Positions 1,316 through 21,283 of a stretch of DNA of 23,012 nucleotides are shown in pieces; within the stretch, counting starts at the first letter, position 1, and every line of letters starts with the position of its first letter. Source of the stretch: a virus; IMG/VR virus record IMGVR_UViG_3300035698_017746, positions 1 to 23,012 of that record, one strand, 5' to 3'. Made by a program: the position numbers and the translations under genes. The notes beneath the pieces were generated by a model that did not search any database, was not told where the DNA came from, and saw only the letters and a program-made list of their open reading frames with translations.

Positions 1316-1852
1316 ATGTCACTTAATGGCATTCTTGGTCTTCAAGGTGTCATTCCTCTTGCAGCAGCTCCAGAACTAGCTTCTACAGGGGGCTTTACTG
1401 ATTTACTAGCCTTACAGGGTGTTACTCCATTAAGTGTGGTTACGAGAGTAACTGGAGGGTTGTATGATATCTTGGCATTACAAGGTGTTACTCCATTAAG
1501 TGGGGTTACGGGAGTAACTGGAGTAACTGGAGGGTTGTATGATATCTTGGCATTACAAGGTGTTACCCCCCTTTCTACACCAATTGCTGCTACCCCAATT
1601 GCAGGTGCAGTTTCTTGGATGCAACTATCTGGTGTTTGGGTAAATAGTGCGCCAATCTACATACCACCTACAACTACTCCAAGTATTCCAGAAATAGTTA
1701 AATCTGTGAGTGGAACATCTCAACAAGCAAAAATAATATTACAAAACTTACAATTACCCAAGAAAGATACAAATATCTATAAACAGTTATTCTTGGAAGA
1801 TGAAGAGCTTATTAGTATAGTAGCTCTATTGTTACAAAATGGTGACCTATAA
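1316..1852 (+). CDS. Repeat protein with four ILALQGVTPLS motifs
   Basis: 178 residues. An 11-residue motif occurs four times, at about residues 6-16 (variant), 30-40, 52-62 and 77-87, joined by Gly/Thr/Val-rich linkers. The last two copies sit in a nearly exact DNA duplication. The C-terminal half (from about 95) is non-repetitive and ends in a charged helix (QLFLEDEELISIVALLLQNGDL). The family is not recognised. The motif could be a short docking peptide displayed several times, or a beta-fold repeat. The gene starts 1 nt after the preceding TAA without a visible ribosome-binding site, and its TAA shares one base with the ATG of the giant polymerase gene, so it may be coupled to, and expressed with, the virion RNA polymerase. 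Confidence 0.7.
   Translation: MSLNGILGLQGVIPLAAAPELASTGGFTDLLALQGVTPLSVVTRVTGGLYDILALQGVTPLSGVTGVTGVTGGLYDILALQGVTPLSTPIAATPIAGAVSWMQLSGVWVNSAPIYIPPTTTPSIPEIVKSVSGTSQQAKIILQNLQLPKKDTNIYKQLFLEDEELISIVALLLQNGDL
1451..1569 (+). repeat. Near-exact 41-bp direct duplication, 75 bp apart
   Basis: The 41 bases at 1451-1491 recur exactly at 1526-1566. They encode GGLYDILALQGV-type repeat units 25 residues apart. Just before the second copy is a small tandem 9-bp duplication (gtaactgga). The identity at silent positions suggests recent expansion. Confidence 0.85.
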
Positions 1853-4800
1853 TGACATGCAGCATTGAAGAAATTAACGAAATCTTAGCTCGATACAATG
1901 TTACGATTAAACCTAATTCTACCCTCTCCAAACTAGTAAAAGCCTTTAGCGACAGTGACGTTTCGTTAAGAGCACGAAGTGCTCTGTCGAAACAGACTGT
2001 AAGAGAATTGCTTGAAGAAAGAAAATCTCTCCTTAATAAAATTATTGCTGAGACTGCTAGGATTCGAACTGCCCTATTGACTCAAGCATATAACGGTAAA
2101 GTACCTAAGAAATTTAATTTGGAGTTTCATAGTGTTGAGGTTAGTGATAAAGAAATTAACGCTGCCTTACGAACTAACCAGACAGCTACCCGATCCATTT
2201 TAAACGATACAATCGAAGTGGGTAGGGCTCGTGGTAAGCAGGTACTTAGTGATTTCTTAACAACATCCACCAAGAAACTCAGTAGATTCTTTCAGCATAG
2301 TCTTACCCTGGTAGATTTCATTGAATCCAAAGAAGGTCAGAAATTCCTGAATAATACGACTGTAGCTGACAATAAGGTTATTAAGTATTTGTTTGAAAAT
2401 AGCCAGCAACTCACCAATTTTATTTATGGGTCAGACCGTAAATCACCTATATACGGGTATATGGACCCTAAGCAGCGAGATCTGCGAGTATTCGGGCTAT
2501 TACAAGATCAGGCATCCCATAATGACGCGTTACGTTATCTCTTACGAGGTGAGCTTACACAGGTCACTGTGAAGGTTAATGGTAAGAACAAAACACAATT
2601 AGATGGAGATTTGTCTTTTGATCCATTAGTTATTGATGCTATGAATCAAGCTGTGTTTAACTGGGTATCTTCACAAGCGCAAGATGCTTACTTTAACGAT
2701 CGATCAGATGTGAATTCAATACTGGGTCGAGATTCAAAAACTAAAGTAAGTGCCACTGAAATGAATAATTTCGGAACTGGAACAAGTCAAGCGATTGTTA
2801 TAGATAATATTGGTACTGAGATTTATCGATTACTGGGTTTTAAACAAAAAACTGGTGATGAGGTTGAAGGTAATTTTAGTGACAAATTAAAAGTAGCTTT
2901 AGGTGAAATGGGTGTTGCCTACCTCTTAGATACTGGAGTACTTACTCAACGTAAAATTGATAACTCTGCCTTTCCAAAACGTAAAGATACTTCTCTTGAA
3001 TCAAATCAAACTAGAGGGGGGGATGGAACAACTATCTTTTTAGAAGTAGCTAATCGAGAGAGTGTTAATTCAATTTCTAATGATAGAAAAGGAGCAATAG
3101 ATATCGATGAGTTGTTGGGTGTAGAGAGTTATAAAACTTTTCCAAGTTTTAAAGCTTCAGATAAAATCCCTAACTTTATGCGTCGAACTCTACAAAGGAT
3201 TAATGACACCACAGGCGATACCCTTAAAAAGCTTCAGAAAGATGAATGGGAAGTTAAATCAACAGTTGCAGATTTATTATTCTCAATGGGTATTGATGTT
3301 GTTGAACAAATCGCTGGAGTTGATGAATCACCCGTACATGTAACCCAGGAAAAACAACGTGATTCGGTTAATGACCGTATTCGTCGATCTATTGAACACT
3401 TTCAAGAATTTCAGGGAAAATTGAAAAACAAGCGTAATTCATTTTTTATGAAATATTTTGTGTCTAAAACTGGTCGAATCTTTATTGATAATAATACGAT
3501 TGATCCTATTAACGATAAAATGATCCGACATCTTATTGGATTAAAGAATTTTAATGTAGAAGTAAATTCTAAAGCTACCCGACAACAATTTAAATTAGCA
3601 GTTGCTCAAGCGTTTGGTTATGGAATTGATAAAAAATCCTTAGCTGACAGTATCACTGAATTTGATAATATCTTGAATAATGAAACGGTAAAAAATGCTG
3701 TTCGGTCAATTCGACAAGGACATGTTAATGACAATCCATTTAATGTACGGATGATCCTTGAAGCTGTTGCTATGGGTGGTGAGAAGATGCATACCTTTGA
3801 AGCATTGGTTGCCCTGGCTGATTATGATGCAGATGGCTCATTTAGCACTAGTCTTCCTGTAGCGTATGACGCAGTAACCAGTGGTGTTGCTATTGGTATG
3901 ATGCAGTCGCTCTTAGATGGAATCAAGAAACTCCCAGCTATCGGGGTATTTGTTGATGGAGTAACCAATACGTTTCCGAGTTGGAAAAGTAAAATTGGTA
4001 ATCAAGACCTATACCAACAACTTGCAGTTGATTGGCACCTAAACGTTAAAAAGAGTCCGCTCGTTAATATCGTGGGTGGTATTGAAGCCTTAATTAAACC
4101 ATTTTCAGATAATGGTCTAATTACTAAAGCTGGTCGAGATTTCAGTAAATCCCCATTAATGTTCACAAACTACGGTGCAGCTATTCAAGGAGCTATTGAT
4201 TCCTTTTCAGCATCTGTATTAGAGGAATTTTATTCACAACTTGTTAAATCAGATAATCCATTAGAGGTTATTGGGTATGCTCAAAATATTATCCAGGCTC
4301 AGTTAAATCTTGGGGAAAAGTTTGACCCACGAACTTTTACTTTAATTGAAAAACAGACAGAGAATTTTCTGCTAAATGTCAGCCGGACTTACGGTAATGG
4401 TTTATCTGATGCTCTTAAAAGTCAATTAGGAAAGTTTCTTCGTTTTCGTGAAAATATTAATCAAGCAACCCGAGCTATGTTTTTTATCTTTGAAAAGAAA
4501 TTTAATGTAGAGAAAGCCGTTCTTGAGACACAATTAAAGAGAACTTTATCCATTGAAGAATTGGAAACTTTACTAGATGAGGTTCGAAAATTTATGCCAA
4601 TCATTCAGGGTCCATTGTCTACTGGGCTTGATACTGGTATTGCCGTATTAAAAGGTGGTTTACGTAGGAACTACACACCTAAGTATACTAACCAACAACA
4701 GTATACACGAAAGCTTAAAGGTACTGCTGATAATACATCCAGTCTTACTTCTCATGCTCGTGGGTATGAATTCCAAGATCCTGGGGTTTCAGGTACTGTT

Positions 4801-7800
4801 GTTAATATCCACAATATGGATTCAGCCATTCAACAAGCAATGCTATCATCCTATTCTGCGCTTAACATTCATGATGCTGGACTGTATTCACTGACAGATG
4901 CGGTTCCAGCCACTAAAACGTATAACCAATCTTTCTTTGATACAACTACTTCGTTTAACATTATGAAAGAAGTAGCTTCTAGTTTAAATAATGTTATGCG
5001 AGCAGCTCAAGCTGATCCTGTCTTTGGTAAAGACGCACCAAATCGATCACGTAATATTAGTGCTTTGTTAAAGGATAGTATGTCTCCAATTAAGCAATAT
5101 GATGCTAATGGTGATTTACGTATAAACCCAAACACTGATACACCTGTTGTTGAAGATTTTACAGTTAGAGGATTCCAGAGAGAATTTGCTGATGTACTAC
5201 AACAAGTGAATACAAACAAACAACAACTATTGTCGGATCATTCAAGTATTGTTGTGGGGCACTCTGCGTCACCCGATGAAGATGCTTCATTTATTTATAC
5301 TGGATCAAGTAAACCAACTACTGAAACTTTGGTGGATAACTTGGTGGATCAAATTCTTAATAATACTCGTAACTCGAATACACTACCTATTAAAAAATCT
5401 GAAGTTGGTCTCCAGAAACAGAAAGATATATCTGAGGCTAATCGACGTAAGCGGGGTCGTGAGCAATCTGCTGCTAATATCCAACCCAATGAAACTGATA
5501 GTCTATATGTGTTCCTTCAAAAACTAGGAGGAATTGATGTTACTAAAGATAAAGAATTACATACTCTTTTAGTACCATACAATGAATCAAATAGACCATT
5601 AGTTGGCGCTTTTGGTATTGCTCAACATAAAAAAGGTAATAAAGGATTAAACCCAGGTAAAGCAGCAGAGTTAGCGATTGAAGCTCGTTACATGACAGAT
5701 GATCAAAACTTAATAGATGTTCTTCAAGAAGGTGATGGAGGTTTAGATGTTTTTAATTCCGATGGATTAGAAGCTAATGAACAAGCTGCCCTAGAGTTTG
5801 CAAATCGTGTCCGTGATCCACAACAACCAATTGGTACGGACCAATCTAAATTATTTGGATCTTCATCGAGATCTGTAGACTTTGATAACTTTACAGCTTT
5901 ATTCACTGGGACCATCACAAGCTCTACGATTAATCATATATTCCAGCAACTGGCTAATATTGGATCAAAGAAAGACTCTCAAGCTCACACAGAGCGATTA
6001 CAAGAACTTTTAGACAATATGGTACGAGTACAAGGGTCTATCGATTTGAAGGTGGGAAACAGTAACTCAGAGACATTTGGAGCACAACGTACCTTCTCAG
6101 ATGGTACCCAGGATATCCATATTCTTGGATCAGCTAGTACTGTTAATAACAATGCTCAATTATCAGCTCAAGAGGTGTACTTACACGAGCTTATACACGC
6201 TGTAATTGAATTTGGCATAAATAGTAACGTTTCAGTCCGTAATGCGCTTAAACGGCTATTTACGCAGGCTGAGAAGCATTTTAATTGGAAAGACTTTTTA
6301 CCAGAAGGCAATACAGCACCAAATCCAGAGGAAATTGCTACTGCTAAAGAAACCTACGCCTATATCTTTAAGAATACAAAAGTCGTTAAAAATGATAAGG
6401 GCAAAAAAGTCAATGCGTATCTGCATGAATTTGTTGCTTACGGTTTGACTAATGCAAGATTTATTAAGAAGCTCTCAACTATTGCAGTTTTTAAACCAGA
6501 TCGTACTGGTAAGAATTTATATGAAAAAATACTGAATTGGTTTAGTGATATTATTAATAATATTGTTAATCGTGTGCAAGGTGTTAATGGTCTGACAGCT
6601 GATAAGGCTCTACGAGTATTGACTGATAAATTATTAACTTCTCACCAAACTAAAACTAATGCCCTAGTTAAACATTTTGATGTATTCAATAATATTAATG
6701 AACGTGCTTTAGATAATCTTAATAATTTTATCTTTAAACCAATGATGGAATTTCGAAAACGTAATCCACCAACGCATGTTCCTGGTCGGATACTTCATAC
6801 AATGGCTGGGCTTCTTGATGAAAAAGTTTTAACAGGAGTTGGTAAGGTATTCGCTCAAGTTGGTCGTAATATTGGAATTACAGAACGAAGCTTTATCACA
6901 AAATTAGTTCGTGAGATGCAAGGATTGACTGAAGATAATGCTGTATGGCATTCATTATTACGCATGTCAAAGAAAACTGTTGATCAGGCTCGGCTACATG
7001 AAGCTGATAATATTAAACGCCACATTAAAGAACGATTTCATGATTCAGATTTAACTGAAGACGAAAGTCAGGGAGTTTATAAAGTATTTATGAAATTAGA
7101 TCTTGTTTCACTGCTCAATACTTATGAGAAGAATAAGTATTCTCCTGATGATGTAATTAAATTACTAACTGATAATAATGCTGTTCATGCCGAAATTTTA
7201 AAAATAGAGCAAGATTTAAATAGCTCTGGTTATGGTGAAAATGCAAAATATTATATTGAACAAGCACAGGGTCTGGGTAATTTAATAGCAAAGAGTGAGG
7301 ATTTTAAACCTGGACAAATGAGCAATGCACACCTAATTGCTACACTTAAAAATGTAGGAAATACAGCTACAGGTGATATCACAAAAGCAACACTACTTAT
7401 TGATGAGTTGGCTTCTTTATATGGGCTATTAGCTACAGCTGCACCCGATAAAATTGCCGCAGCTCGTGTGTATACGCGAGAGAACGCTGTAGATGGTGTA
7501 CAAAATGGTATTACCAATTTGTTATACCTTCATAATTTAAGTAAGCAGGAAGCGTTAGAACGAGTGTTTTCAGGTAACCCTGCACAAACAACTAAGGGGT
7601 ATACTCGTGAAACATTCAATCCAAATATTGATATTAAAGTTAGCCCCCTAACCGTTGAGAAAATAAATAAAACAACAGGGGAAGTAACTGTTACAAATCT
7701 TGAAAAGAGTTTGTTAGCTGCTGGGTATGTACGAGTAAATCAAAGTGCTCTACCTAAAGACCCTGCTGATACATTTTCAGGTGATCGTTACTTATTTGTA

Positions 7801-9429
7801 AATGCTAGTAGCTCTAATGCAAGTTGGGTTAAGTCGATTGTGTCTCTAACAAATAAGCAAGCTCGTGGGCATGAGATTCAAGATATCTTACAGGAAGTAA
7901 TTTTTGGAGAGTCTCAAGCGGAAATAAATGAAGCTTTAGCCAGAGTGATTAAACAAACAAATAAACGAGTTAAGAAACAATTCGCTGTTCAAAAAAATAC
8001 GGATACAACTAACTTATTACCTATCGTAGATGATCGAGGTAAGACTACTGGTTACAGATATATTATGTCTGATACTACGAAAGATAAAGTGATGCAACGA
8101 GATAACCGATTTGACTATTCAATGGGTCGTATGTTTTCAAGCATTACAGATAAAGAAAACTCAAAGAAGATAAATAGTAATGTTTTAAAATTGTTAAAGG
8201 AAGATTTTGATAAAGACTATTTAAATAATGCGAGTGCGTTTGTGGATATCGGACCACAAACTAGTGATAAAGAGTTATCTGAAATTTATCAGTTATTACC
8301 TCAAGAAATGAAAGATGAAATGAAAGGACTTTGGGGTAAAGGTGAACCTGTTTTTATAAAAGAAGAATTTGTTAATCTTGTATTTGGTTTTAGAAAAATG
8401 AGAGTAACTGATATGGACAACTATGCTGGAGCTGCAGTACGGGGTGTTAATCGCGGGCTATCTTGGATAGTTCAAAATACTTTATTTCCTGAAGCACCTA
8501 ATGCGGATATCGGGAAACTTTGGGGTGAGACAGTTGAATTTGCAAAAGAAAATATTGTTATTCGAACAGGTGTAATTTTATTACCTAACTTTATTAGTAA
8601 TAATATTCTTTTATTTATTAAAGGAGTATCACCTAAAGTTGTTGTTAAAGCACAGACTGAAGCACTTGTTGAGTTGGATCGATATCGTAAAGATCTATCG
8701 CGTAGAGATATTTTAGCCAGAGACTTAAAAGGTAATACTGCGTTAAAAGGTGTTAAACGTAAAAATACTGAATTGGAGTTAGCTCGGTTAGAAGATGATC
8801 TATCTAATAATCCTGTTGCGGAATTAATAGATGAAGGAATTTTTCAAAGCATTATTGAGGATATTAATTTTGAAGAAGATATTTATTCATCGCGAGCAAA
8901 AATTGGTGATAAGGCTAAAAAGCTTGCTGATACGTATTTACCTGAATTTTTAACTACTGGATACCAGCATTTGTTTTTGACCCAGAATACTAAACCTTAC
9001 CAGTTATTATTGAAGGCTACCCAGGTCAGCGATTTCATGGCGAGATACGCTCTATTTAAGCATCGTATGGATCAAATCCCAAATGGTACAGATGTGGTAG
9101 CCTATCGTTCTGACACGCTGAGAGAGATTGTAGAGACCTTCGTGAACTATGACATACCAACATCTCGGGAAATGCAGTATATAAATGATATTGGTTTGCT
9201 AATGTTCACTAAATTCTACTTTAGGATTCAAAAAATAATTTTAAGGTTATTTACTAAACGGCCTGCGTCAACTTTAGGTTTTTATATGATTGAAGGTATG
9301 CTTGGAGATATGGAAGATATTAGTGATAGTATGATATCACCATCACATTTATTGACTCGAATGTTAAATGCACCTTCAAACATAATGGACACAGTCAGTA
9401 CACCTCCTGCAATTGAATTATTGTTGTGA
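1852..9429 (+). CDS. Giant virion RNA polymerase (N4-like) with zincin metalloprotease-like domain
   Basis: 2525 residues. The N-terminal ~1100 residues match the layout of a single-subunit T7/N4-type RNA polymerase: SKTGR at 538-542 (compare TxxGR of N4), motif A with catalytic D673 followed by AVTSG, motif B with R762, K766, M770, Y774 and G775 in exactly the T7 spacing, and motif C with H1007-D1008. In N4 this polymerase is packaged in the virion, injected with the DNA, and transcribes early genes from hairpin promoters. Near residue 1445 there is HELIH (H1445, E1446, H1449) followed by HEFVAYGLTN, whose E1526 could be the third zinc ligand; this is a zincin-type peptidase pattern known from large phage 'polyvalent' proteins. 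The C-terminal ~900 residues are mostly helical, with a hydrophobic stretch at about 2240-2265. N4 vRNAP is near 3500 residues, so this one is much shorter. The polymerase call is firm, peptidase activity is inferred. Confidence 0.88.
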   Translation: MTCSIEEINEILARYNVTIKPNSTLSKLVKAFSDSDVSLRARSALSKQTVRELLEERKSLLNKIIAETARIRTALLTQAYNGKVPKKFNLEFHSVEVSDKEINAALRTNQTATRSILNDTIEVGRARGKQVLSDFLTTSTKKLSRFFQHSLTLVDFIESKEGQKFLNNTTVADNKVIKYLFENSQQLTNFIYGSDRKSPIYGYMDPKQRDLRVFGLLQDQASHNDALRYLLRGELTQVTVKVNGKNKTQLDGDLSFDPLVIDAMNQAVFNWVSSQAQDAYFNDRSDVNSILGRDSKTKVSATEMNNFGTGTSQAIVIDNIGTEIYRLLGFKQKTGDEVEGNFSDKLKVALGEMGVAYLLDTGVLTQRKIDNSAFPKRKDTSLESNQTRGGDGTTIFLEVANRESVNSISNDRKGAIDIDELLGVESYKTFPSFKASDKIPNFMRRTLQRINDTTGDTLKKLQKDEWEVKSTVADLLFSMGIDVVEQIAGVDESPVHVTQEKQRDSVNDRIRRSIEHFQEFQGKLKNKRNSFFMKYFVSKTGRIFIDNNTIDPINDKMIRHLIGLKNFNVEVNSKATRQQFKLAVAQAFGYGIDKKSLADSITEFDNILNNETVKNAVRSIRQGHVNDNPFNVRMILEAVAMGGEKMHTFEALVALADYDADGSFSTSLPVAYDAVTSGVAIGMMQSLLDGIKKLPAIGVFVDGVTNTFPSWKSKIGNQDLYQQLAVDWHLNVKKSPLVNIVGGIEALIKPFSDNGLITKAGRDFSKSPLMFTNYGAAIQGAIDSFSASVLEEFYSQLVKSDNPLEVIGYAQNIIQAQLNLGEKFDPRTFTLIEKQTENFLLNVSRTYGNGLSDALKSQLGKFLRFRENINQATRAMFFIFEKKFNVEKAVLETQLKRTLSIEELETLLDEVRKFMPIIQGPLSTGLDTGIAVLKGGLRRNYTPKYTNQQQYTRKLKGTADNTSSLTSHARGYEFQDPGVSGTVVNIHNMDSAIQQAMLSSYSALNIHDAGLYSLTDAVPATKTYNQSFFDTTTSFNIMKEVASSLNNVMRAAQADPVFGKDAPNRSRNISALLKDSMSPIKQYDANGDLRINPNTDTPVVEDFTVRGFQREFADVLQQVNTNKQQLLSDHSSIVVGHSASPDEDASFIYTGSSKPTTETLVDNLVDQILNNTRNSNTLPIKKSEVGLQKQKDISEANRRKRGREQSAANIQPNETDSLYVFLQKLGGIDVTKDKELHTLLVPYNESNRPLVGAFGIAQHKKGNKGLNPGKAAELAIEARYMTDDQNLIDVLQEGDGGLDVFNSDGLEANEQAALEFANRVRDPQQPIGTDQSKLFGSSSRSVDFDNFTALFTGTITSSTINHIFQQLANIGSKKDSQAHTERLQELLDNMVRVQGSIDLKVGNSNSETFGAQRTFSDGTQDIHILGSASTVNNNAQLSAQEVYLHELIHAVIEFGINSNVSVRNALKRLFTQAEKHFNWKDFLPEGNTAPNPEEIATAKETYAYIFKNTKVVKNDKGKKVNAYLHEFVAYGLTNARFIKKLSTIAVFKPDRTGKNLYEKILNWFSDIINNIVNRVQGVNGLTADKALRVLTDKLLTSHQTKTNALVKHFDVFNNINERALDNLNNFIFKPMMEFRKRNPPTHVPGRILHTMAGLLDEKVLTGVGKVFAQVGRNIGITERSFITKLVREMQGLTEDNAVWHSLLRMSKKTVDQARLHEADNIKRHIKERFHDSDLTEDESQGVYKVFMKLDLVSLLNTYEKNKYSPDDVIKLLTDNNAVHAEILKIEQDLNSSGYGENAKYYIEQAQGLGNLIAKSEDFKPGQMSNAHLIATLKNVGNTATGDITKATLLIDELASLYGLLATAAPDKIAAARVYTRENAVDGVQNGITNLLYLHNLSKQEALERVFSGNPAQTTKGYTRETFNPNIDIKVSPLTVEKINKTTGEVTVTNLEKSLLAAGYVRVNQSALPKDPADTFSGDRYLFVNASSSNASWVKSIVSLTNKQARGHEIQDILQEVIFGESQAEINEALARVIKQTNKRVKKQFAVQKNTDTTNLLPIVDDRGKTTGYRYIMSDTTKDKVMQRDNRFDYSMGRMFSSITDKENSKKINSNVLKLLKEDFDKDYLNNASAFVDIGPQTSDKELSEIYQLLPQEMKDEMKGLWGKGEPVFIKEEFVNLVFGFRKMRVTDMDNYAGAAVRGVNRGLSWIVQNTLFPEAPNADIGKLWGETVEFAKENIVIRTGVILLPNFISNNILLFIKGVSPKVVVKAQTEALVELDRYRKDLSRRDILARDLKGNTALKGVKRKNTELELARLEDDLSNNPVAELIDEGIFQSIIEDINFEEDIYSSRAKIGDKAKKLADTYLPEFLTTGYQHLFLTQNTKPYQLLLKATQVSDFMARYALFKHRMDQIPNGTDVVAYRSDTLREIVETFVNYDIPTSREMQYINDIGLLMFTKFYFRIQKIILRLFTKRPASTLGFYMIEGMLGDMEDISDSMISPSHLLTRMLNAPSNIMDTVSTPPAIELLL

Positions 9430-9985: not shown

Positions 9986-10363
9986 TTAATTTTCTTGGAT
10001 CTCGATTTCTACACGAGGATTTTCTTTACAAACACCTCCCCATTGGTACAGCACATTAGGTATCCACATAGAGTTGTCATCTTTAATTTTTTTAAACTCA
10101 GTTAATGCATCACAAAAAAATTTATCATGTATCGCTAATACATTAGATACATCAGTCTTTCGTTTAGTTTTTGCATACAGCTTATACCGGATGATCACCG
10201 GAACATCTATGAAAGGTAAGCTCATTATCTGTTTTTGCATTAAAGCCTTATAAACAATCTTAGCTTTATTTAAATCATGATAATGAGCATTCCTATAAAT
10301 GTTTAAATTTAAAACAAATACTTTATTTTTAGATATGGGTACCCTTAATGGGGAGATTAACAT
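9986..10363 (-). CDS. RusA-like Holliday junction resolvase
   Basis: 125 residues. The pattern KRKTDVSNVLAIHDKFFCDAL followed by KIKDDN (D71, N74, D85, D95-D96) matches the RusA signature R-x-D-x-x-N...D-x-L...DD, where the acidic residues bind the catalytic metal at four-way junctions. The N-terminal half has the expected beta-strands (VPVIIRYKLYAKT). Length agrees with RusA (about 120). The enzyme would resolve recombination or replication intermediates before packaging. Its ATG directly follows the TAG of the ssDNA-binding gene, so the two are probably translated together. I judge this by motif only. Confidence 0.75.
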   Translation of the reverse strand: MLISPLRVPISKNKVFVLNLNIYRNAHYHDLNKAKIVYKALMQKQIMSLPFIDVPVIIRYKLYAKTKRKTDVSNVLAIHDKFFCDALTEFKKIKDDNSMWIPNVLYQWGGVCKENPRVEIEIQEN

Positions 10364-11098
10364 CTAGCCGAACATTTTCTGACTTTTGGGTTCGTTCTTC
10401 TCGTTAGCTTTATTGACACTGGGATTTTTTCCTTGTCCACCAGTTTTATCAATAACTTGCCCACTAAATGAAGCGATCCACTTATTCATAAAAACAGGTT
10501 CGGCATTAGCCTGTTTTTCAGTTAAGGTTTGTCCTGTTTCAGCATCGTAAGCCTTAATGAATTCATTCTGCTTGCGAGTCTCAACCGGATTAGTATCAAC
10601 GTATACCCCATCAACATTAATCTGTTTGATAACAAGTTGTTCTTGAATAGCAACTTTAATAACTTTACCAATCATGCCAGTTAAAACAGCTTTGGTTTGA
10701 GGTATATCTCGTTTCGCTTCTTTGTTATAAGCGTTTACAAGTTTTTGCTGAGTTTCCATTTCAGCAAGAGGTACACCCAGGAGAATTTCATGCAAATCAT
10801 CACAGAATACAAAGCCAGGGAGATAACGTTCTTCAGCAGTCGGATTACCCTGCTTATCTTTTACTTTAAAGGTAATTGAGTTACCTTTTTTATCACCAGA
10901 TGTAAAGTAAACTGACATTCCTACAGTTTTGCCAGTATCTGTAATCCCAGAAATGTGAAGAAACGCAGCACCACCTTCTGATTGATCGGCGTATACCTTA
11001 TCCAGCGTAATTGGGTATACATTAGTTTCCAATACAGCACCAAAGATAGTATCACCTTCATCTTTGACTGATTGCTTTTTTTGTAGAGCTTCAAACAT
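10364..11098 (-). CDS. Probable single-stranded DNA-binding protein (N4 gp45-like)
   Basis: 244 residues, with beta-rich segments (TIFGAVLETNVYPITLDKV, GGAAFLHISGIT, GKVIKVAIQEQLVIKQINVDGVYV) and a disordered C-terminal tail rich in Asn, Lys and Gly ending KSQKMFG. Place in the operon, size and a flexible tail fit the ssDNA-binding protein encoded at this point in N4-type genomes, between the RecA-like ATPase and the convergent virion polymerase gene. N4 SSB coats replicating DNA and also activates host RNA polymerase at late promoters. No invariant catalytic motif exists to confirm it, so the call rests on synteny and fold-like composition. Ribosome-binding AAAGG lies upstream of ATG 11098. 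Confidence 0.65.
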   Translation of the reverse strand: MFEALQKKQSVKDEGDTIFGAVLETNVYPITLDKVYADQSEGGAAFLHISGITDTGKTVGMSVYFTSGDKKGNSITFKVKDKQGNPTAEERYLPGFVFCDDLHEILLGVPLAEMETQQKLVNAYNKEAKRDIPQTKAVLTGMIGKVIKVAIQEQLVIKQINVDGVYVDTNPVETRKQNEFIKAYDAETGQTLTEKQANAEPVFMNKWIASFSGQVIDKTGGQGKNPSVNKANEKNEPKSQKMFG

Positions 11099-11127
11099 AT
11101 TTTGTACCTTTTATTAAGTTAAACTTA

Positions 11128-11868
11128 CTATTGATAATATTCAGCAAGACGCTGAACTACTAAACTGATGTTGTTGTCGATGAATAATTCTTCATCTTTC
11201 CACAGACCCATTGGACTTCTAATTTTAAGGTCTAAAGTATCTGAAGTAAGGTCCGTTTGGAACACATATTTAAAACCTAATCGTTTCTCACGAGCACTGA
11301 TTGTAAGTAAACTATTACCTTCCATGAAGGGTTCAAGTTTTTCTAATGTTTTCTTATTAGCAGTAAGAATAATATTATAATCGGCTTCAACACCAATCCT
11401 ACCTACAGCACCTCTAACAGGAACGGTAGTTTCGTAAGCTACTTCAGCTTCTTTAAAAACTGTGTTTGTATGGGCAAGTATAATCCAGCTTTTTAAGCTA
11501 GTTTTAATCGCGAGCATAAAATCGTTATAGAAGGCTGCGTATTCTTGCCAAGCTGCACCAAAGGGTCTGGTATCCCCTGTAACGAACTCTGCCTCATATC
11601 GATTCATTAGGAAAGTTACAGTATCTAAAACCCCTGTGGTTACTTCAGGGTAATTTGCTTCAAGATCCTTGACAGCTTCAAGAGCTGTTTTAGCATGGGC
11701 AATATTGAGTACCTTCATACCACCTTTAGGTACCTTAAAAGGTAAATCTTTAAGATCAGTATTTAGGTATGCAACAGATGGATCATTTGCAAATTTAAAT
11801 AATGAATGCGACTTACCCATTGAAGGTGGAGCAGCGATCAGTACTACTCGTTTGTTATCTTCGGACAT
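11128..11868 (-). CDS. RecA-like P-loop ATPase (Sak4/AAA_24 type)
   Basis: 246 residues. Walker A is APPSMGKS (13-20) immediately after the first strand, a probable Walker B is GVLDTV (D82), and WIILAHTN (128-135) fits the sensor strand of RecA-fold ATPases. The compact core without the RecA N- and C-terminal domains is typical of phage Sak4-like single-strand annealing or recombination ATPases and of the ATPase next to SSB in N4 relatives. It probably loads on SSB-coated DNA, with the nuclease and SSB encoded on either side. AGGA lies about 7 nt before ATG 11868. The gene is separated from the primase gene by 69 nt, the longest gap in this part of the operon. Confidence 0.75.
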   Translation of the reverse strand: MSEDNKRVVLIAAPPSMGKSHSLFKFANDPSVAYLNTDLKDLPFKVPKGGMKVLNIAHAKTALEAVKDLEANYPEVTTGVLDTVTFLMNRYEAEFVTGDTRPFGAAWQEYAAFYNDFMLAIKTSLKSWIILAHTNTVFKEAEVAYETTVPVRGAVGRIGVEADYNIILTANKKTLEKLEPFMEGNSLLTISAREKRLGFKYVFQTDLTSDTLDLKIRSPMGLWKDEELFIDNNISLVVQRLAEYYQ

Positions 11869-11937
11869 GTGTTTTCCTATGGTCGTTTTATTATTGATTG
11901 TGCGGGTATAATGTTTAAGATTCGTTTAGGCATAGTA

Positions 11938-14100
11938 TTAAGCATCTCCCATCCGGCGAGCAATTGTCATCATTATAGTTCGGCTAATTTCTTCATCCCC
12001 TAATGGGCTATCCAGTTTTTCATTAAAGGTGTCAATTTTTGAACGGATAACATCAATTGGATATCGAGCATCCTTGAGAATTAACCCATACTTTAATAAC
12101 ATTCTAGATCGGTTACCTTCTTTAGTTTCCCGAATAAACCAACGTTCAAGGGCAGTTAAATTTGAGTGCTGTGTAATTTCAGCTTTGACTTGTTCACATT
12201 TTTTAGTCTGCGGGATAAACAATGTTGCGTCCAATATTTCACCCTCATTGGTGAATATAGTTGAGTCTTTCGCCGTAGCCCATTTACGGGCAATATCTTT
12301 AGTACCTTCATCACAATAAAATGGTAGCCAATCAAATACATTTTCCATATAACTAACGTATTCACGTGTAGATAATTTTAATGTATGGCTCAATGGTATT
12401 ACAATACGGAATCGATGTTTTTCATTAGTGTGTCGTTGAGTTGTATATATTTTATGGGTGTAATCTTTAAGTAATAATTGAGCTGTTTCAATGGACGTTC
12501 CTTCATCGACATCAAGCACTAAAAGATTAAAACCAGGGACTACCTTTGTGTTACTTCGATAGTCATTTACAAACTGATGTACTGTCCAATTATGATCTCC
12601 AGAAACAAACAATTCATCAAGAGCTAAAAAGGGTACAAGAACACTAACATATCTTTCAACAGCATCTTTACTATAAGATATTGTTAATTTTTCCATATTA
12701 GTTTCTTCTAGAGTTTCACCAGAGTAAAATTCAATATCATCAATATAGCTTTTTTTAATAATAATATTATGGCTGTAACCATATGTTGCAGCTAATGCCA
12801 GCATGGTTCGTTTATGTCCATCTGCACCTTTAAAGAAGGTAAGATTCTCCATAAGGTCTACTTGAGTAACAGGATGACCTACTTCAGCAATATATTTAGC
12901 TAAACGTTCATATGGTTTTTCTCGTGCAATAATATTTAAATAGGCTTCACCGGAATCTTCGACAAGTTTTATTGCATTACGAATATGTTCTTCAGTGACC
13001 TCTTCAGACTTATCAATAAAGGCATAGGTACCTGCTAATTTCAATGCTTTATAATATCGATGTTCTAATTCAGTTCGAAGCATCTCCTGGTATTTTTTAA
13101 GTTTAGTTGCTCGCTCAACACACTCAATTTTATATTCTAATAGCATGACATGAGTAGCTTTTGTCATGGTTAGGTCAACATTAAAATGTGAGACATCTGC
13201 CAAATCTGCAATCGCATCTGAAAGCGCACTTAGATCTACATCAATTTTAGTATCAGTAAGCGCATCATATAAATCTTCTGCGTTTAACACTGATTTGTGT
13301 AATGCAGTTCTAGTATAACCAAATATGAATCGACGACCATAACCAGTATCAAACAGACTGATTAACTCATCTTCAAGTTTTGTATCTTCGAATAGTTTAT
13401 TAGGTGTACCAAATAACATCATGTTAGCTGGTGTTTTACCATGTAGTGTTGGAATACGTTTACTTTCAACTGTGTGCTTAATTAGCTTTTCTTTAATGAT
13501 GCCAATATCATAAAGTTCTAAATAAGCTTTCAATACATCTTGACTAGCAAATAGATTACTACCAATTTCATCAATTTCTAGTGACATTGAACCTGAACCA
13601 GCCATCAGTAATTTTTGACGCATTTGTTTCAGTGCTGGTGTAGTTCCACTATCAAACGAAAATAACATTGGGCCACAAGAATCAAATTCAGCACAAACCC
13701 TATCATATTCAACATCCTCATCGTTGCCTTCAGTTAACGCTCGTTTTACTGCTAGTGCACGTAATGATTTTTCAGCAATTACTTGAAAAGTTTCTTCCAT
13801 AAAAACCTGACGAAATGGGGTTATAATTTTATCTTCGAGAATAAATGTAGCGTACCCTTTACCTGTTCCAGAGGGGGCCAGATTTAGCGCGTATACGTTA
13901 ACAGGAATCTTACCTCGATCATGGGTTGCTATATTCGTTCGCATCGTAGCGGCTATTTTAGCGAGATAGTAAGCTACCAGTATTCGAAAAAACCCAATGT
14001 TATCACTCTGGGTTTTAGTCATTAAAATGTTAACTAACTTTTCTGAAAATTCATGATATTTATAGTCTTCAAAGTTTGTTTCTTTTTGTGCTTTAGACAT
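11938..14100 (-). CDS. ATPase-primase fusion replication protein (N4 gp43-like)
   Basis: 720 residues from ATG 14100. An in-frame GTG lies 12 nt upstream at 14112, but the ATG has AGGTGA 8 nt before it and overlaps the preceding stop (ATGTCTAA), so I prefer it. The N-terminal half has Walker A APSGTGKG (75-82) and a Walker B-like LEIDEIG (D177, E178), followed by GYGRRFIFG, as in DUF3987-like or helicase-type phage ATPases. The C-terminal part carries LDVDEG (D530, D532) and RHTNEKHRFR (H557 or H562), which resembles the DxD and histidine motifs of archaeo-eukaryotic-type primases. It would unwind and prime, or only prime, at the phage fork. The primase half is inferred from motifs; helicase activity is uncertain. 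Confidence 0.72.
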   Translation of the reverse strand: MSKAQKETNFEDYKYHEFSEKLVNILMTKTQSDNIGFFRILVAYYLAKIAATMRTNIATHDRGKIPVNVYALNLAPSGTGKGYATFILEDKIITPFRQVFMEETFQVIAEKSLRALAVKRALTEGNDEDVEYDRVCAEFDSCGPMLFSFDSGTTPALKQMRQKLLMAGSGSMSLEIDEIGSNLFASQDVLKAYLELYDIGIIKEKLIKHTVESKRIPTLHGKTPANMMLFGTPNKLFEDTKLEDELISLFDTGYGRRFIFGYTRTALHKSVLNAEDLYDALTDTKIDVDLSALSDAIADLADVSHFNVDLTMTKATHVMLLEYKIECVERATKLKKYQEMLRTELEHRYYKALKLAGTYAFIDKSEEVTEEHIRNAIKLVEDSGEAYLNIIAREKPYERLAKYIAEVGHPVTQVDLMENLTFFKGADGHKRTMLALAATYGYSHNIIIKKSYIDDIEFYSGETLEETNMEKLTISYSKDAVERYVSVLVPFLALDELFVSGDHNWTVHQFVNDYRSNTKVVPGFNLLVLDVDEGTSIETAQLLLKDYTHKIYTTQRHTNEKHRFRIVIPLSHTLKLSTREYVSYMENVFDWLPFYCDEGTKDIARKWATAKDSTIFTNEGEILDATLFIPQTKKCEQVKAEITQHSNLTALERWFIRETKEGNRSRMLLKYGLILKDARYPIDVIRSKIDTFNEKLDSPLGDEEISRTIMMTIARRMGDA

Positions 14101-15097
14101 TAGATAATTCACCTGATTCAGTTAATTGTTTACGTTGATCACAAAAGTCATGTGCAGAGCAATAATTACAAGCTTTTGCTACTGAAGGGATAATCTTTAC
14201 TTCACCAAAACCTTGATTTTGTAGATGGGTATAAGCACTGTCAGCATTGGTACCAAATACTTTAGTTGCACGTTTTGCATCAGGTTTTGAGTAATACTTG
14301 TATTCTGGTAAATCCCTCCAGAGATCTTCATCGGTACAAACAGGAATTGAAGCTTGTGGTCTACCAGAATATTGTTTTATTAATCTAAGCTTTTCGGTAA
14401 TCCAAGCCTCAGTTTCTTTTAGTGACATGAGGGTAAACTGTTGGCTCAGTATTTGAGATGGTGGATAACCCGCTTGGGTCATTTTGTATTTTACCCAATC
14501 TGTGAAATAGTAATTAATGGTAAAGATTTCCTCAGTTACCTTATCTTGATTTAACCATCGATAGATAGATCCTTGTTGGATATATTTTGTAGATTGGCTC
14601 TGTTTGGTATACGTGAAGGTGCCAGTACTTTTATAATCATTGAGAGCACCAGCAAGAATTATATCAAATTTGCCCCCTATCTTAAAGCCTTCAATTGCTT
14701 TGATAACTCGCTGTTCCATATAGACAGGTATAAATGGAATAGCATCTTCAGTCCACGCCTTAACATTTTCATCAGATGGATTAATGACAATCGTTTCAGC
14801 AACTGCTTCTGAGATACCTAATAACGCACAAGCACGTTTAACAACATGTGGCTTCATCCAGGCATTCTCAATTGAATCATGCATGGCAGAGCCCATTTGA
14901 GACTTACCAAACATGGATATATCCATAGTCGATGTCTTCTTATCGTTCTCACGACTCAGAATGATCTCTTTAAGCGGTTTTAATAGGCCAGTAGCACTTA
15001 TGTAGTCTGGGTCGCTTACGTGGTCATAGTTGTCATCTAAGAGCCATACAGCCATAGGTAAGTCAATACCTGTTACGTTAGTTAATTTTTGGGCCAT
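14093..15097 (-). CDS. PD-(D/E)XK nuclease, RecB/Cas4-like, with putative Fe-S cysteines (N4 gp42-like)
   Basis: 334 residues. A RecB-type nuclease core is visible: H73 (AMHDSIE), E128, GKFDII with D145, then NDYKST with D154 and K156. The C-terminus has C310-x2-C313-x5-C319 (CNYCSAHDFC), and C90 could be the fourth ligand; the Cas4/AddB Fe-S cluster uses one upstream and three C-terminal cysteines. Such enzymes are 5'-3' exonucleases acting on DNA ends in recombination and replication. It sits directly after a small gene (TAA adjacent to ATG 15097, GAGG upstream) and overlaps the start of the primase gene. Family assignment is firm by motif, exact polarity unknown. Confidence 0.8.
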   Translation of the reverse strand: MAQKLTNVTGIDLPMAVWLLDDNYDHVSDPDYISATGLLKPLKEIILSRENDKKTSTMDISMFGKSQMGSAMHDSIENAWMKPHVVKRACALLGISEAVAETIVINPSDENVKAWTEDAIPFIPVYMEQRVIKAIEGFKIGGKFDIILAGALNDYKSTGTFTYTKQSQSTKYIQQGSIYRWLNQDKVTEEIFTINYYFTDWVKYKMTQAGYPPSQILSQQFTLMSLKETEAWITEKLRLIKQYSGRPQASIPVCTDEDLWRDLPEYKYYSKPDAKRATKVFGTNADSAYTHLQNQGFGEVKIIPSVAKACNYCSAHDFCDQRKQLTESGELSNV

Positions 15098-15352
15098 TTA
15101 ATCTACCTCAATATGTTTATGATCATGAGAAATTTCAGTAATGAAATAATCCAGTCTATTTACTACATGGAGACCCGATATAATAAGTATAATTGAAAAA
15201 CCTTCATCGTCTTCCTCACCAGTATCAATCCTTGTCCAGATAAATTTTAATTCAGTACCCCTTACATCACCCCATTGCAGGGGATCTTCAGTGGTGGGTT
15301 TATATTGATCAACCCATTCACCATAGGATAATTTTATGGTTTCTTTGGTCAT
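15098..15352 (-). CDS. Hypothetical 84-residue acidic protein
   Basis: Family not recognised. It is acidic with aromatic residues near the N-terminus (YGEWVDQY), a WTRIDTGEEDDEG stretch and a short hydrophobic beta-like segment (FSIILIISGLHVV), ending in a His/Asp-rich tail. AGGG is 6 nt before ATG 15352 and its TAA abuts the nuclease ATG, so expression is likely coupled to the nuclease. One of five small genes between the DNA polymerase and nuclease genes. Confidence 0.65.
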   Translation of the reverse strand: MTKETIKLSYGEWVDQYKPTTEDPLQWGDVRGTELKFIWTRIDTGEEDDEGFSIILIISGLHVVNRLDYFITEISHDHKHIEVD

Positions 15353-15369
15353 GATTATCCCTAAATTAT

Positions 15370-15561
15370 TTACCCATTTGGGTACAATTTTTTGCCTACT
15401 ATAAATGAATCATTTTGTTCTTCAAACCAAGTCCAAATATCAAATTTACATGTACCTGTTGGAAAGTGCATAAATGATTCTTCAGATAAATCTCTGTCAT
15501 CAATGACTACATCGGCTAACTGCTCCCAGAGAATATCTAGTTCTTCTATGGATCTACTCAT
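15370..15561 (-). CDS. Small conserved hypothetical (LWEQLADV...HFPTGT...WTWFEEQ)
   Basis: 63 residues. The pattern ELDILWEQLADV, an acidic stretch, FMHFPTGT and then IWTWFEEQN looks like a small conserved protein seen in many bacteria and phages (from memory; typical form LW..L.DV...D....FLHFPAGT....W.WFE). No biochemical function is known to me for it. It fills the operon between the 102- and 84-residue genes with 8- and 17-nt gaps. The start ATG 15561 lacks a strong ribosome-binding site. Confidence 0.65.
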   Translation of the reverse strand: MSRSIEELDILWEQLADVVIDDRDLSEESFMHFPTGTCKFDIWTWFEEQNDSFIVGKKLYPNG

Positions 15562-15569
15562 TTTGTTTA

Positions 15570-15878
15570 TTAAATTATTTGGGCTACTGCTTCAGAAACT
15601 ATGATTGTCTGGTAAGCAATTACACATTTAAATACATTACACACTTCTAATGGATCTCGACAAAGTATCTGTACGATTTCTTCCATTTCATTGAGTGGGT
15701 ACACTTCAACTATGAAACCTTTTTCCCGAGTTAGCCAAAGCTTAACTCCATCATTTTTTGACTCAGCACATAGGAATAAATACTCGCCATTTTTATCATC
15801 AGATAATTCCAAGGTGAAGATAAAACCCAACTTTTGGAGATCAGCTATCAACTGATCTGTGATGGTTTTACTTGTCAA
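15570..15878 (-). CDS. Hypothetical 102-residue protein, TTG start
   Basis: Family not recognised. The start is TTG 15878: GGAG lies 7 nt upstream, there is no earlier ATG in frame, and the first internal Met is only near residue 65. The frame overlaps the end of the preceding small gene by 11 nt, which suits translational coupling. The sequence looks like a small alpha/beta protein (FIFTLELSDDKNGEYLFLCAES, KLWLTREKGFIVEVYPL) with three cysteines and a hydrophobic C-terminus. Confidence 0.6.
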   Translation of the reverse strand: MTSKTITDQLIADLQKLGFIFTLELSDDKNGEYLFLCAESKNDGVKLWLTREKGFIVEVYPLNEMEEIVQILCRDPLEVCNVFKCVIAYQTIIVSEAVAQII

Positions 15879-16035
15879 GATTCTGCTCCGCTTCTTCTAT
15901 CTGATCAGCCCATTTTAATAGTCTTTTTTCTGACATAAGGATGTAATTTGTATTAAACATGTTACTAACCATACGCCGAATATCAGTAGTTATGCGTCTT
16001 AAGTTAGCTGCACTTTGTTCTATTGATTCGCTCAT
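15868..16035 (-). CDS. Small helical protein, 55 residues
   Basis: From ATG 16035 to TAA 15868. AGGTG is about 6 nt upstream of the ATG, the ATG follows the previous TAA by one base, and the 3' end overlaps the next gene by 11 nt. The product is mostly helix with heptad-like spacing (SIEQSAANLRRITTDIRRM, then EKRLLKWADQIEEAEQNL), suggesting a short coiled coil or helical hairpin. Family not recognised. Spacing and start signals make a real gene likely despite its size. Confidence 0.6.
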   Translation of the reverse strand: MSESIEQSAANLRRITTDIRRMVSNMFNTNYILMSEKRLLKWADQIEEAEQNLDK

Positions 16036-16036
16036 T

Positions 16037-16156
16037 TTATACACCTATTTTTTGTTTTCTTAATTCTAAGTTAGGAATGGTTTCTTTATAACCAAACCAT
16101 TCACCAGATATATCGTGTTTGGTATGTTTGATTATCAATAGATCTACTTTATCCAT
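16037..16156 (-). CDS. Tiny protein, 39 residues, overlapping the DNA polymerase 3' end
   Basis: From ATG 16156 to TAA 16037. The ATG overlaps the polymerase stop (ATGGATAA), and AAGGA lies about 9 nt upstream inside the polymerase reading frame. The product is MDKVDLLII followed by KHTKHDISGEWFGYKE and a basic tail. Family not recognised. It fills an otherwise unexplained gap in a tightly packed operon. Confidence 0.5.
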   Translation of the reverse strand: MDKVDLLIIKHTKHDISGEWFGYKETIPNLELRKQKIGV

Positions 16157-18728
16157 AAATTTTATTCCTTACATCGTTAATTTCATCATCATTAGCATCG
16201 TTAGATAACGTATACTGCTTATCCCAGGATGTACCAATATCTAAGTTTGCTTCCATTGGAACATCGGTTGATTTGATCTTTGGATGGTCATTCCATCGCA
16301 TCTCTTTTACTAGATTTTCATTGAGCCATTGAATGGTATCGTTGTCGTCTAAGAATACGAAATAAGCGGCGTCATGTATTGTATTACAGGGGAATATTTT
16401 ATCGTAATAGTCCGAACTAAGAAGTCTTCTAATTAACACGATAGATGCTCGATTAATCAACATACCCCAACTTTGAGATACAGCATTAACAGCAGACCTT
16501 CCTTCAGATTCAGCAGCGTATACATTGTTACGTGATGTCCTTAAAGTTTGGGCTAATAATGGAGTCCGTAATCGTAAACCAAACGCACATTCTACATAAC
16601 CATGTAGAGATGCAAATTCTATCTGTTTCTCTGACCAGATATCAGAGTGTGCATAAAGTTTATGGTAATTATCTTCAATTGCCTTCGCCTGAATTTTGGT
16701 CAAACCTAAGTTCTTGACAAGAGTATGCCAAGTACCTAAATAGGTTAATGCAAATGTTGGTTGTTTAGAATCTTGTCGCAGTGGTTTGTACAATACTGCA
16801 ATAGAATTTATAGATTCTACTGTATCTATAATATCAGGCATCTGATCACCAAAGTAACTGTGAGCACGTAAACAGTGACCATCATAGCCATCAGTATAGA
16901 CTTTAATTTTATTTGGATCTTGGGTCAGGATTGCATTAATACGATCTTCTAGACTTGCGTAATCTGCACCACCAAATAGATAGCCAGGGGGAGCTTCAAA
17001 ACAGGCTTTAATTAGTAGACCATATTCGGAGGTATTAGGTAAATTCTCTAGATTGGGTGAGTTAGCAGATAGCCGACCACTTTGAGTTCCACCTAATCTT
17101 TTATTACCATTTAACCAGACAGAACCATCTTCACGAGTAAAGGCATATTTAATAAAAGCTTTAATAAATGTACTAGATACTGTTGAAGCGGATGAAAATT
17201 CTTGTAAGAGTTCAATGATATGTTTTACATGTGGATCTTTAGTATGGTGTATTAAACTATCGAGTGTATTGGCATCACAAGATGCTTGTTTAGTATCGGT
17301 GAAATTAAGAACTGGTAACCCCAAAACGTCATAAAGTAAAACACGTTTTTGTTTATCTGAATTCGGATTGAATTCCTCATCATTAATATCATTTATTATT
17401 TTAATTTTGATTTTATCTGGGTTCTTTGCTTTTTCTTTACGATCAGCATTATCCTTAATAAGCCTTTGTTGTTTTAGTATTGCAACTGCATTTTCGATTT
17501 CTTTAATAGCACGTAAATCTTTGGTTACATAAGCCAGTATTTCATCAAGTTGCTTATCAGCAGCGTGTACCTTGAGCATATTCATAGGTAGGCCAATCAA
17601 CATCATGTAAAGTAAGGGCATGATAGAGGGTTGGAAGATCTCTCGGTATACGGCAATCTGAGCAGCCTCAGCTGCTATCGGATAGTTCTTTTCGTAAACA
17701 TACCAAGTACATAGGGCATCCCTTAAATTATATTCAAGAATTTCATCTCTTGGGTATTTATGAATATCCCCATCATGTTTAAATTCAATACCATAATTTC
17801 CAGCGTATTCAAATGAATTTTCTTTTAAACCAAGTTCAATATCATGAGTTGAGTTCTTGGCAAGATAAGTAATAATCATTGAATCCTCAACGTCATTAAA
17901 TGTGAATAAGCCATCACGTAACCCATCAATATCTAAACTATGTTCCATAAATAATTGATAGATTATTACCTTTGCATCATACAGTGCGTTATGCATGATG
18001 ATCACACCAGTATACGTTTTAAAAAACCATACAAGTAACTTACGAATTTTTGCTTCTTCCTTAGTGTCAACAGAAAATGCTATACCTTCATGTTTATTCC
18101 ATGCGAAAGCTATCGTACAGATTCTAGCTCTTTCAAAACGAAGGCTTTCTGTTTCAATATCACAGGTTAACTCTGGATGTGCAAGTAAACCCCAAAGGCA
18201 CCCTTCAATATCTTTAGCAGTAATTGGATTTACGAATACTTCAATTATATCTTTTTTTATTACCAGTATATTAGTTGCTGCTGTGTAAAAAACTTCTAAT
18301 GAGTTATCTAATTTAAATCGCAGGGAGTCATTATAGAGGAGGGCATTATGGTCAATGGATAATACAGTATTGATTTGCTCGAACCCTGCTAATTTACCTA
18401 TTCTAGGTTCACCAAAACAATCAGATGTTTTAGGAACTCCAGTGATGTATTTATATAAATCACCATTGGGAATAAGGATAGTTTTAATCCCCAGAATATT
18501 TAAACCTTGAGCTACTTTTTCAAGTTCAAGTTTTGTTTCTTTTGCAGGTAGTTTTTTATTAACGGAAGGAATCGTTATAAGTACGATTTGGTTTTTAGGA
18601 ATACCAAGAGCTTCTAATGGTTTAAAATAAAATGTGTTAAGTGGTAAAGGTAGATACGATGAAGTGTCTTTAATCAGTATCGCATACTTAATACTATTAC
18701 GATCTTTACTACTATAGATGTATTCCAT
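16149..18728 (-). CDS. Family A DNA polymerase with 3'-5' exonuclease (N4 gp39-like)
   Basis: 859 residues. Residues 1-160 are an N-terminal domain typical of N4-type polymerases (PLEALGI, then YKYITG and NALLYN). The DEDDy proofreading exonuclease follows: CDIETES with D190/E192, HNALYDAK with N246/D251, and YNLRD with Y333/D337. The polymerase domain has GRLSANSPNLENLP just ahead of motif A DYASLEDR (D589), motif B R651-x3-K655-x3-F659-x3-Y663 and motif C IHDAAY (H785, D786). All catalytic residues are present, so the enzyme should be active and proofreading. It is the phage replicative polymerase. The residue after motif C D786 is Ala instead of the Glu of E. coli Pol I, which I believe is normal in this clade. 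It starts at ATG 18728, 9 nt after a small gene, without a strong ribosome-binding site. Confidence 0.92.
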   Translation of the reverse strand: MEYIYSSKDRNSIKYAILIKDTSSYLPLPLNTFYFKPLEALGIPKNQIVLITIPSVNKKLPAKETKLELEKVAQGLNILGIKTILIPNGDLYKYITGVPKTSDCFGEPRIGKLAGFEQINTVLSIDHNALLYNDSLRFKLDNSLEVFYTAATNILVIKKDIIEVFVNPITAKDIEGCLWGLLAHPELTCDIETESLRFERARICTIAFAWNKHEGIAFSVDTKEEAKIRKLLVWFFKTYTGVIIMHNALYDAKVIIYQLFMEHSLDIDGLRDGLFTFNDVEDSMIITYLAKNSTHDIELGLKENSFEYAGNYGIEFKHDGDIHKYPRDEILEYNLRDALCTWYVYEKNYPIAAEAAQIAVYREIFQPSIMPLLYMMLIGLPMNMLKVHAADKQLDEILAYVTKDLRAIKEIENAVAILKQQRLIKDNADRKEKAKNPDKIKIKIINDINDEEFNPNSDKQKRVLLYDVLGLPVLNFTDTKQASCDANTLDSLIHHTKDPHVKHIIELLQEFSSASTVSSTFIKAFIKYAFTREDGSVWLNGNKRLGGTQSGRLSANSPNLENLPNTSEYGLLIKACFEAPPGYLFGGADYASLEDRINAILTQDPNKIKVYTDGYDGHCLRAHSYFGDQMPDIIDTVESINSIAVLYKPLRQDSKQPTFALTYLGTWHTLVKNLGLTKIQAKAIEDNYHKLYAHSDIWSEKQIEFASLHGYVECAFGLRLRTPLLAQTLRTSRNNVYAAESEGRSAVNAVSQSWGMLINRASIVLIRRLLSSDYYDKIFPCNTIHDAAYFVFLDDNDTIQWLNENLVKEMRWNDHPKIKSTDVPMEANLDIGTSWDKQYTLSNDANDDEINDVRNKIYG

Positions 18729-18737
18729 AAATAAAAG

Positions 18738-18869
18738 TTACGATTTCTTTTTTGGTAGGTGTAATATTTTACGAGTCGGTGTGGTTATCTTATGAACATG
18801 TTTTAATAGCTCTGATGTCTTAGCGTTTTCTTCTTTTAATTTCTGACTTGCGTCGTTTTGTCGATTCAT
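18738..18869 (-). CDS. Small basic protein, 43 residues
   Basis: From ATG 18869 to TAA 18738, with ATGA overlap to the stop of the zincin-VWA gene. Residues 1-27 are a charged helix (MNRQNDASQKLKEENAK, then SELLKHVHK) and the C-terminus is basic (RKILHLPKKKS). Family not recognised. The ATGA junction and the exact fit between two larger genes support it. Confidence 0.55.
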   Translation of the reverse strand: MNRQNDASQKLKEENAKTSELLKHVHKITTPTRKILHLPKKKS

Positions 18870-19987: not shown

Positions 19988-19992
19988 AATTA

Positions 19993-19998
19993 CCTCCT
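19993..19998 (-). promoter_or_regulatory. Strong ribosome-binding site AGGAGG for a TTG start
   Basis: AGGAGG followed by five bases and TTG 19987. It overlaps the TAG of the preceding gene. It is the best ribosome-binding site in the operon and decides the non-ATG start of the zincin-VWA gene; the nearest in-frame ATG would remove about 34 residues. Confidence 0.8.
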
Positions 19999-21272: not shown

Positions 21273-21283
21273 TGTTAGTATCT

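Follow-up and report, generated by a model that had tools for sequence, protein, structure and literature searches.

The window analysed here is the whole of a 23,012-base linear IMG/VR record. On its plus strand, from 1852 to 9429, lies an open reading frame (ORF) of 2525 aa, the ATG of which overlaps the stop codon of the preceding ORF (TAATG); the nearest upstream in-frame stop, at 1843, limits how far upstream the protein can begin. This ORF matched PHROG 2206, "virion RNA polymerase," with an E value of 0, covering profile positions 1022 to 2051 and 2262 to 3401 of 3406, and nothing aligned before profile position 1022. Pfam returned only N4_RNAP_helical, below threshold, and since a PDB search with the single polymerase sequence gave no match, profiles were used instead. 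A seven-sequence profile matched the N4 virion RNA polymerase (vRNAP) structures, a result that is partly circular because N4 was in the profile. A profile of 27 sequences, comprising the window protein and IMG/VR relatives with N4 left out and hence not circular, matched the N4 mini-vRNAP with an E value of 8e-74. Sequence P0001 alone found no relatives among viral contigs, while alignment-based searches did find them. No relatives were found among 84,980 prokaryote genomes, nor any phage DNA near-identical to the window, and the window vRNAP is at most 28% identical to that of any catalogued phage. It is a new divergent member of an already known family.

A sequence-only reading had recognized an N4-type vRNAP from SKTGR, D673, R762/K766/M770/Y774/G775, and NIHDAG (D1008), and all of these are confirmed exactly where it placed them. 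SKTGR, a T/DxxGR motif (residues 538 to 542; 3463 to 3477), contains R542, equivalent to N4 R424. Motif A, PVAYDAVTSG (residues 669 to 678; 3856 to 3885), contributes D673 (3868), equivalent to N4 D559. Motif B (4123 to 4176, with R762 to G775 at 4135 to 4176) reads R762-x3-K766-x7-Y774-G775 and corresponds to N4 R666/K670/Y678, and motif C, NIHDAG (residues 1005 to 1010; 4864 to 4881), carries D1008 (4873 to 4875), equivalent to N4 D951. The motif B spacing is, as had been claimed, that of T7 RNA polymerase, both R-x3-K and K-x7-Y matching T7 R627/K631/Y639. Across a 66-sequence alignment, R542, R559, D673, R762, K766, and D1008 are invariant and align with R424, R440, D559, R666, K670, and D951 of the N4 mini-vRNAP, so the motif matches in the window are not due to chance. 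K556 and Y774 correspond to N4 K437 and Y678; the former is conserved in 64 of 66 sequences, and at the latter position every one of the 66 has either Tyr or Phe. The window polymerase, in other words, combines T7-type single-subunit motifs (TxxGR, A, B, and C) with N4-type spacing. The N4 promoter-contact residues were either not conserved in this alignment or fell where it is unreliable.

The single-subunit RNA polymerase domain, modeled over residues 245 to 1150 (2584 to 5301), was predicted by AlphaFold2 with a pLDDT of 82.2 and a pTM of 0.80. Foldseek identified the N4 mini-vRNAP as the structure closest to this model (E value of 2e-26), and VIA-align superposed the two (3c3l) with a Z score of 26.9 at 4.3 Å over 807 residues. 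The yeast mitochondrial and T7 RNA polymerases ranked behind, with Z scores of about 20, and hence the predicted fold is closer to the N4 mini-vRNAP than to T7 RNA polymerase proper. The earlier reading had proposed two checks, a profile match to single-subunit RNA polymerases and a superposition on the N4 mini-vRNAP to see whether D673 and D1008 meet at the active site; the PHROG 2206 and N4-free profile matches supply the first, and the predicted domain agrees with the second at the level of the overall fold. Sequence comparison and modeling support an N4-type vRNAP that is up to this point ordinary, if very divergent, among those of the Schitoviridae.

The window motif A, A-Y-D-A-V-T-S-G, departs from the consensus E-x-D-G-x-T-N-G, a point absent from the earlier reading. 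Ala671 occupies the position of E557, the Glu with which N4 grips the initiating NTP and which is kept in 59 of 66 relatives. DAVTSG for DGxTNG is also found in the related contigs L019 and L080. The change is unusual, and activity could be lower. The protein might even be a decayed or non-transcribing relative that is kept solely for ejection and as a scaffold, given also that its polymerase half is less conserved than its C-terminal half. We regard this as very improbable, since all core catalytic residues are retained, the polymerase fold is predicted with confidence, and a handful of other relatives likewise have Gly, Ser, or Ala in place of this Glu. Moreover, the gp15/gp16 RNA polymerase families, which are not on the 23-kb contig, are present in a 55-kb fragment of a close relative (G001, which holds L080), suggesting that the three-polymerase program of N4 likely persists in the lineage. 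No promoter hairpins of N4 geometry beyond chance were detected in the window, the early region of which lies off the contig, or in the available end of G001, from 44000 to 55570; as a control, the scan recovered the promoters of N4 itself (557 and 4546).

Schitoviridae have a podovirus morphology and genomes of 59 to 80 kb with terminal repeats. Convergent with the polymerase gene, the minus strand of the window carries an N4-type replication block (9986 to 18728) with a RusA-like resolvase, SSB (gp45), Sak4 (gp44), primase (gp43), exonuclease (gp42), and DNA polymerase (gp39), as well as a gp25-like gene (PHROG 1314) and a gp24-like ATPase gene (PHROG 1297) at 18866 to 22258. Identity to Schitoviridae proteins reaches 47% for the primase and is about 41% for the DNA polymerase. 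Homologues of all seven of gp24, gp25, gp39, gp42, gp43, gp44, and gp50 are found on the contig, and these seven belong to the 17 core genes listed for the family (PMC7650795). Between the DNA polymerase gene and the gp25/gp24-like genes there are only ORFs of 147 and 284 aa of no assigned family, and neither the N4 helicase gp37 nor rIIA/rIIB is at its usual place in the window.

In N4 gp50, a membrane-associated N-terminal domain (NTD) is followed by a linker (907 to 1006), the polymerase (1007 to 2101), the C1 domain (2124 to 2375), and then C2 (PMC12633501). The window protein starts near this linker: its N-terminal 244 or so residues (1852 to 2583) are poorly conserved and lie at or just past the N4 NTD-polymerase linker, residue 250 aligning with N4 residue ~1134. 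At the other end, the large C-terminal domain (C1 and C2; 5914 to 9411) is the best conserved part, matching PHROG 2206 positions 2262 to 3401 with an E value of 1.5e-225. Its C1 zincin-like metallopeptidase domain carries HELIH (HExxH) at residue 1445 (6184 to 6198). A conserved HExxH is reported for N4 C1 (PMC12633501), and the zincin-like domain of N4 has also been described elsewhere (PMC5512222); in the alignment made here, N4 itself lacks the HExxH. The window chain therefore contains the polymerase, C1, and C2 but not the membrane domain of about 900 residues: instead of one chain of about 3,500 aa that includes the NTD, there are 2525 aa without an NTD match, compared with a vRNAP length range of 2,842 to 3,820 aa in reference genomes (PMC10654107). 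The sequence-only reading, which saw a polymerase hidden in a 2525-residue protein, was thus right about its identity but overlooked the absence of the N4-type NTD. Against its expectation that such a gene would likely be labeled only as a giant structural protein, PHROGs names the vRNAP at once, although depositors have used labels such as "coil containing protein" and "ribonuclease E" for relatives.

Where the missing domain might be encoded is suggested by the sequence upstream. The polymerase gene begins 1.85 kb from the left end of the window and is preceded on the plus strand by two repetitive, structural or fibre-like ORFs of 107 and 266 aa (194 to 1314), both without a family match, and by an adjoining ORF of 178 aa (1316 to 1852). 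The latter matches counterparts in L019 and L080 (phmmer E values of 2e-7 to 6e-5), where the matching ORF is the 3' end of a block that separates the NTD and polymerase genes. A C-terminal motif, LEDEELxxIxxLLLxxGIL, is common to the pre-polymerase ORFs of the window, L019 (9723 to 10001), L080 (9627 to 9875), and, as judged by eye for LEDEELxxIxxLLLxxG, L058 (8982 to 9239); outside the motif these ORFs are unrelated, low-complexity sequence. Given this shared motif, the three upstream ORFs of the window may well form the 3' end of a similar insert. Since only 1.85 kb is available, apparently all of it inside the insert, the window's own NTD gene is presumed, by analogy, to sit further left than the contig reaches.

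Among the fetched loci, the NTD is part of the polymerase ORF at 67 others, while in nine related contigs (L011 and L080 counted once) the polymerase is short and the NTD forms an ORF of its own. A profile built from 39 fused NTDs detected these separate NTDs with E values of 2e-34 in L080, 1e-40 in L098, 2e-46 in L100, 9e-38 in L104, 6e-38 in L058, 7e-27 in L052, 2e-74 in L055, 8e-113 in L082, and 3e-17 in L019, the last being a modest match with high composition bias; reversed ORFs, used as a control, gave zero matches. The NTD proteins of L019 and L080 also match one another (6e-76). Coiled-coil noise as the source of the PHROG match of L080 and L019 was ruled out by the NTD profile together with the reversed-sequence control. 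In L080/L090, L098, and L100, the genes are ordered gp53-like, gp52-like, gp51-slot protein, NTD, other genes, and polymerase, so that the NTD gene still stands where gp50 would start. The two parts are usually separated by holin, spanin-like, or tail-fibre-like genes: L080 has a holin here (E value of 3e-39), L019 has an ORF that weakly matches Rz-like spanins, and fibre-like proteins occur as well.

Short ORFs of this kind could in principle be assembly or frameshift artefacts of a normal fused vRNAP of about 3,400 aa, as was suspected for two isolates (PMC10654107), and this might in part explain the adjacent split pairs (L082 and L055) and the broken genes of L058 and L112. For the window, however, we find this scarcely credible. 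Three non-NTD ORFs lie directly upstream of its polymerase gene, intact genes separate the two parts in L019, L080, L098, L100, L104, L052, and L058, and the start and stop codons overlap as in coupled genes. Furthermore, four independent assemblies of the L080 type, each from a different metagenome, have identical boundaries with differences of only 1 to 5 residues, which together with the intact intervening genes argues against an assembly error. The vRNAP frame is broken again further downstream in L058 (15456 to 16880; 2087 and 474 aa) and in L112 (7013 to 17290; 1374, 1246, and 738 aa), reflecting either sequencing error or additional splitting.

Alternatively, the phage may truly have lost the NTD, leaving ejection to just the C-terminal domain and gp51/gp52-like proteins. 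No NTD gene is on the contig, and L024 (4762 to 7161), in the sister group, has a short polymerase with no recognizable NTD within 7 kb upstream, from the gp53-like region to the polymerase, making true loss possible in that case. For the window we consider loss unlikely, because L019 (53% identical over the best segment) and L080, the closest of the relatives whose contigs extend far enough upstream, both keep an NTD gene 5 to 6 kb upstream, behind a small ORF of the kind seen in the window. We think it likely that the window ORF is an N4-type vRNAP reduced to its polymerase and C-terminal domains, the NTD being detached and encoded separately upstream, presumably off the contig.

The free NTD proteins of the relatives carry additional domains. 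That of L080 (L080 2 to 4117 with L090 5087 to 8998) is fused to an SF1 (Dda-like) helicase (PHROG 325, 2e-52; Pfam AAA_30, 3e-18), which would amount to an ejected helicase. That of L019 (746 to 4681) shows a weak ART-PolyVal match at residues 1104 to 1205 (E value of 0.006, below the Pfam cutoff). No transmembrane segment recurred consistently among the NTD proteins in a simple hydropathy scan, and the structure prediction for the L100 NTD was too poor for use (pTM of 0.29).

In a FastTree phylogeny of trimmed alignments, split types occur at five or more places (window/L019/L080; L098/L100/L104; L058; L082; L055; L052), although the number of splitting events is rough because several deep nodes are weakly supported and L082 and L055 are adjacent pairs. 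Fused types (L095, L103, L102, L105, and L021) stand between the split ones. Such interspersion suggests that splitting has been recurrent, and recurrent fission, or some re-fusion, probably fits the tree best. On balance, we favor the idea that phages of the Schitoviridae type have on repeated occasions severed the giant ejected polymerase at the NTD-polymerase linker, so that the membrane-entry module and the polymerase became two distinct proteins of the virion and the NTD gene, once free, gained effector domains (a helicase and possibly an ADP-ribosyltransferase). If true, covalent tethering would not be needed for delivery of the polymerase.

In this uncultivated, Schitoviridae-like phage, the polymerase would, by analogy with N4, be packaged in the virion, travel through the tail along with the DNA, and transcribe the early genes, starting at promoters of the genome as it enters. 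The NTD, tethered in N4 by a linker of about 100 residues, would be detached from this chain and, as in close relatives, come from a separate upstream gene at the ejection-operon position of the gp50 start, with other genes in between. Presumably, NTD and polymerase are packaged and ejected as two proteins.

The N4 vRNAP is ejected and transcribes from hairpin promoters together with gyrase and SSB of the host; when isolated, its NTD enters membrane nanodiscs (PMC12633501, PMC4496689). A 2025 model pictures a single beads-on-a-string chain with the membrane-binding NTD leading (PMC12633501). Natural phages with the chain cut at the linker offer a direct test of how much the tether matters when a 383-kDa polymerase has to cross a tail of ~35 Å and two membranes. 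In a limited literature search, we found no prior description of a detached NTD as a vRNAP variant. A survey that required at least 2,500 aa and ExDGxxxG (PMC10654107) reported a vRNAP over two or three adjacent ORFs in two isolates, ascribed to gene calling or read-through. Its filters exclude the present lineage, the window protein passing on length and failing on the motif and relatives of 2312 and 2388 aa failing on length, which shows why split-type phages get missed.

Compared with coliphage N4 gp50 (3500 aa; PDB 2PO4, 3C3L, and 9PNR), the window protein shares the polymerase fold, the catalytic residues, the C2 domain, the position of the zincin-like HExxH in C1, and a gene location that closes the late operon and faces the convergent replication genes. 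It differs in its low overall identity (about 19%), the absence of the NTD (N4 residues 1 to ~906), a motif A of AYDAVTSG instead of EADGVTNG, and the HExxH, which N4 lacks in our alignment. The best catalogued matches, the Schitoviridae vRNAPs of VCO139, PT15-A5, and pYD6-A (Vibrio, Alteromonas, and Pseudoalteromonas phages), share the HExxH and the operon position, but they are only 26 to 28% identical and are all fused, with at least 3022 aa. Likewise, the polyvalent ejected proteins of Iyer et al. 2017 (PMC5512222) include an RNA polymerase fused to a zincin-like peptidase, as in the window; the parts of that paper available to us treat one chain and contain no detached N-terminal domain. 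The extra domains on the relatives' free NTDs, the SF1 helicase of L080 and the sub-threshold ART-PolyVal of L019, are reminiscent of these polyvalent proteins.
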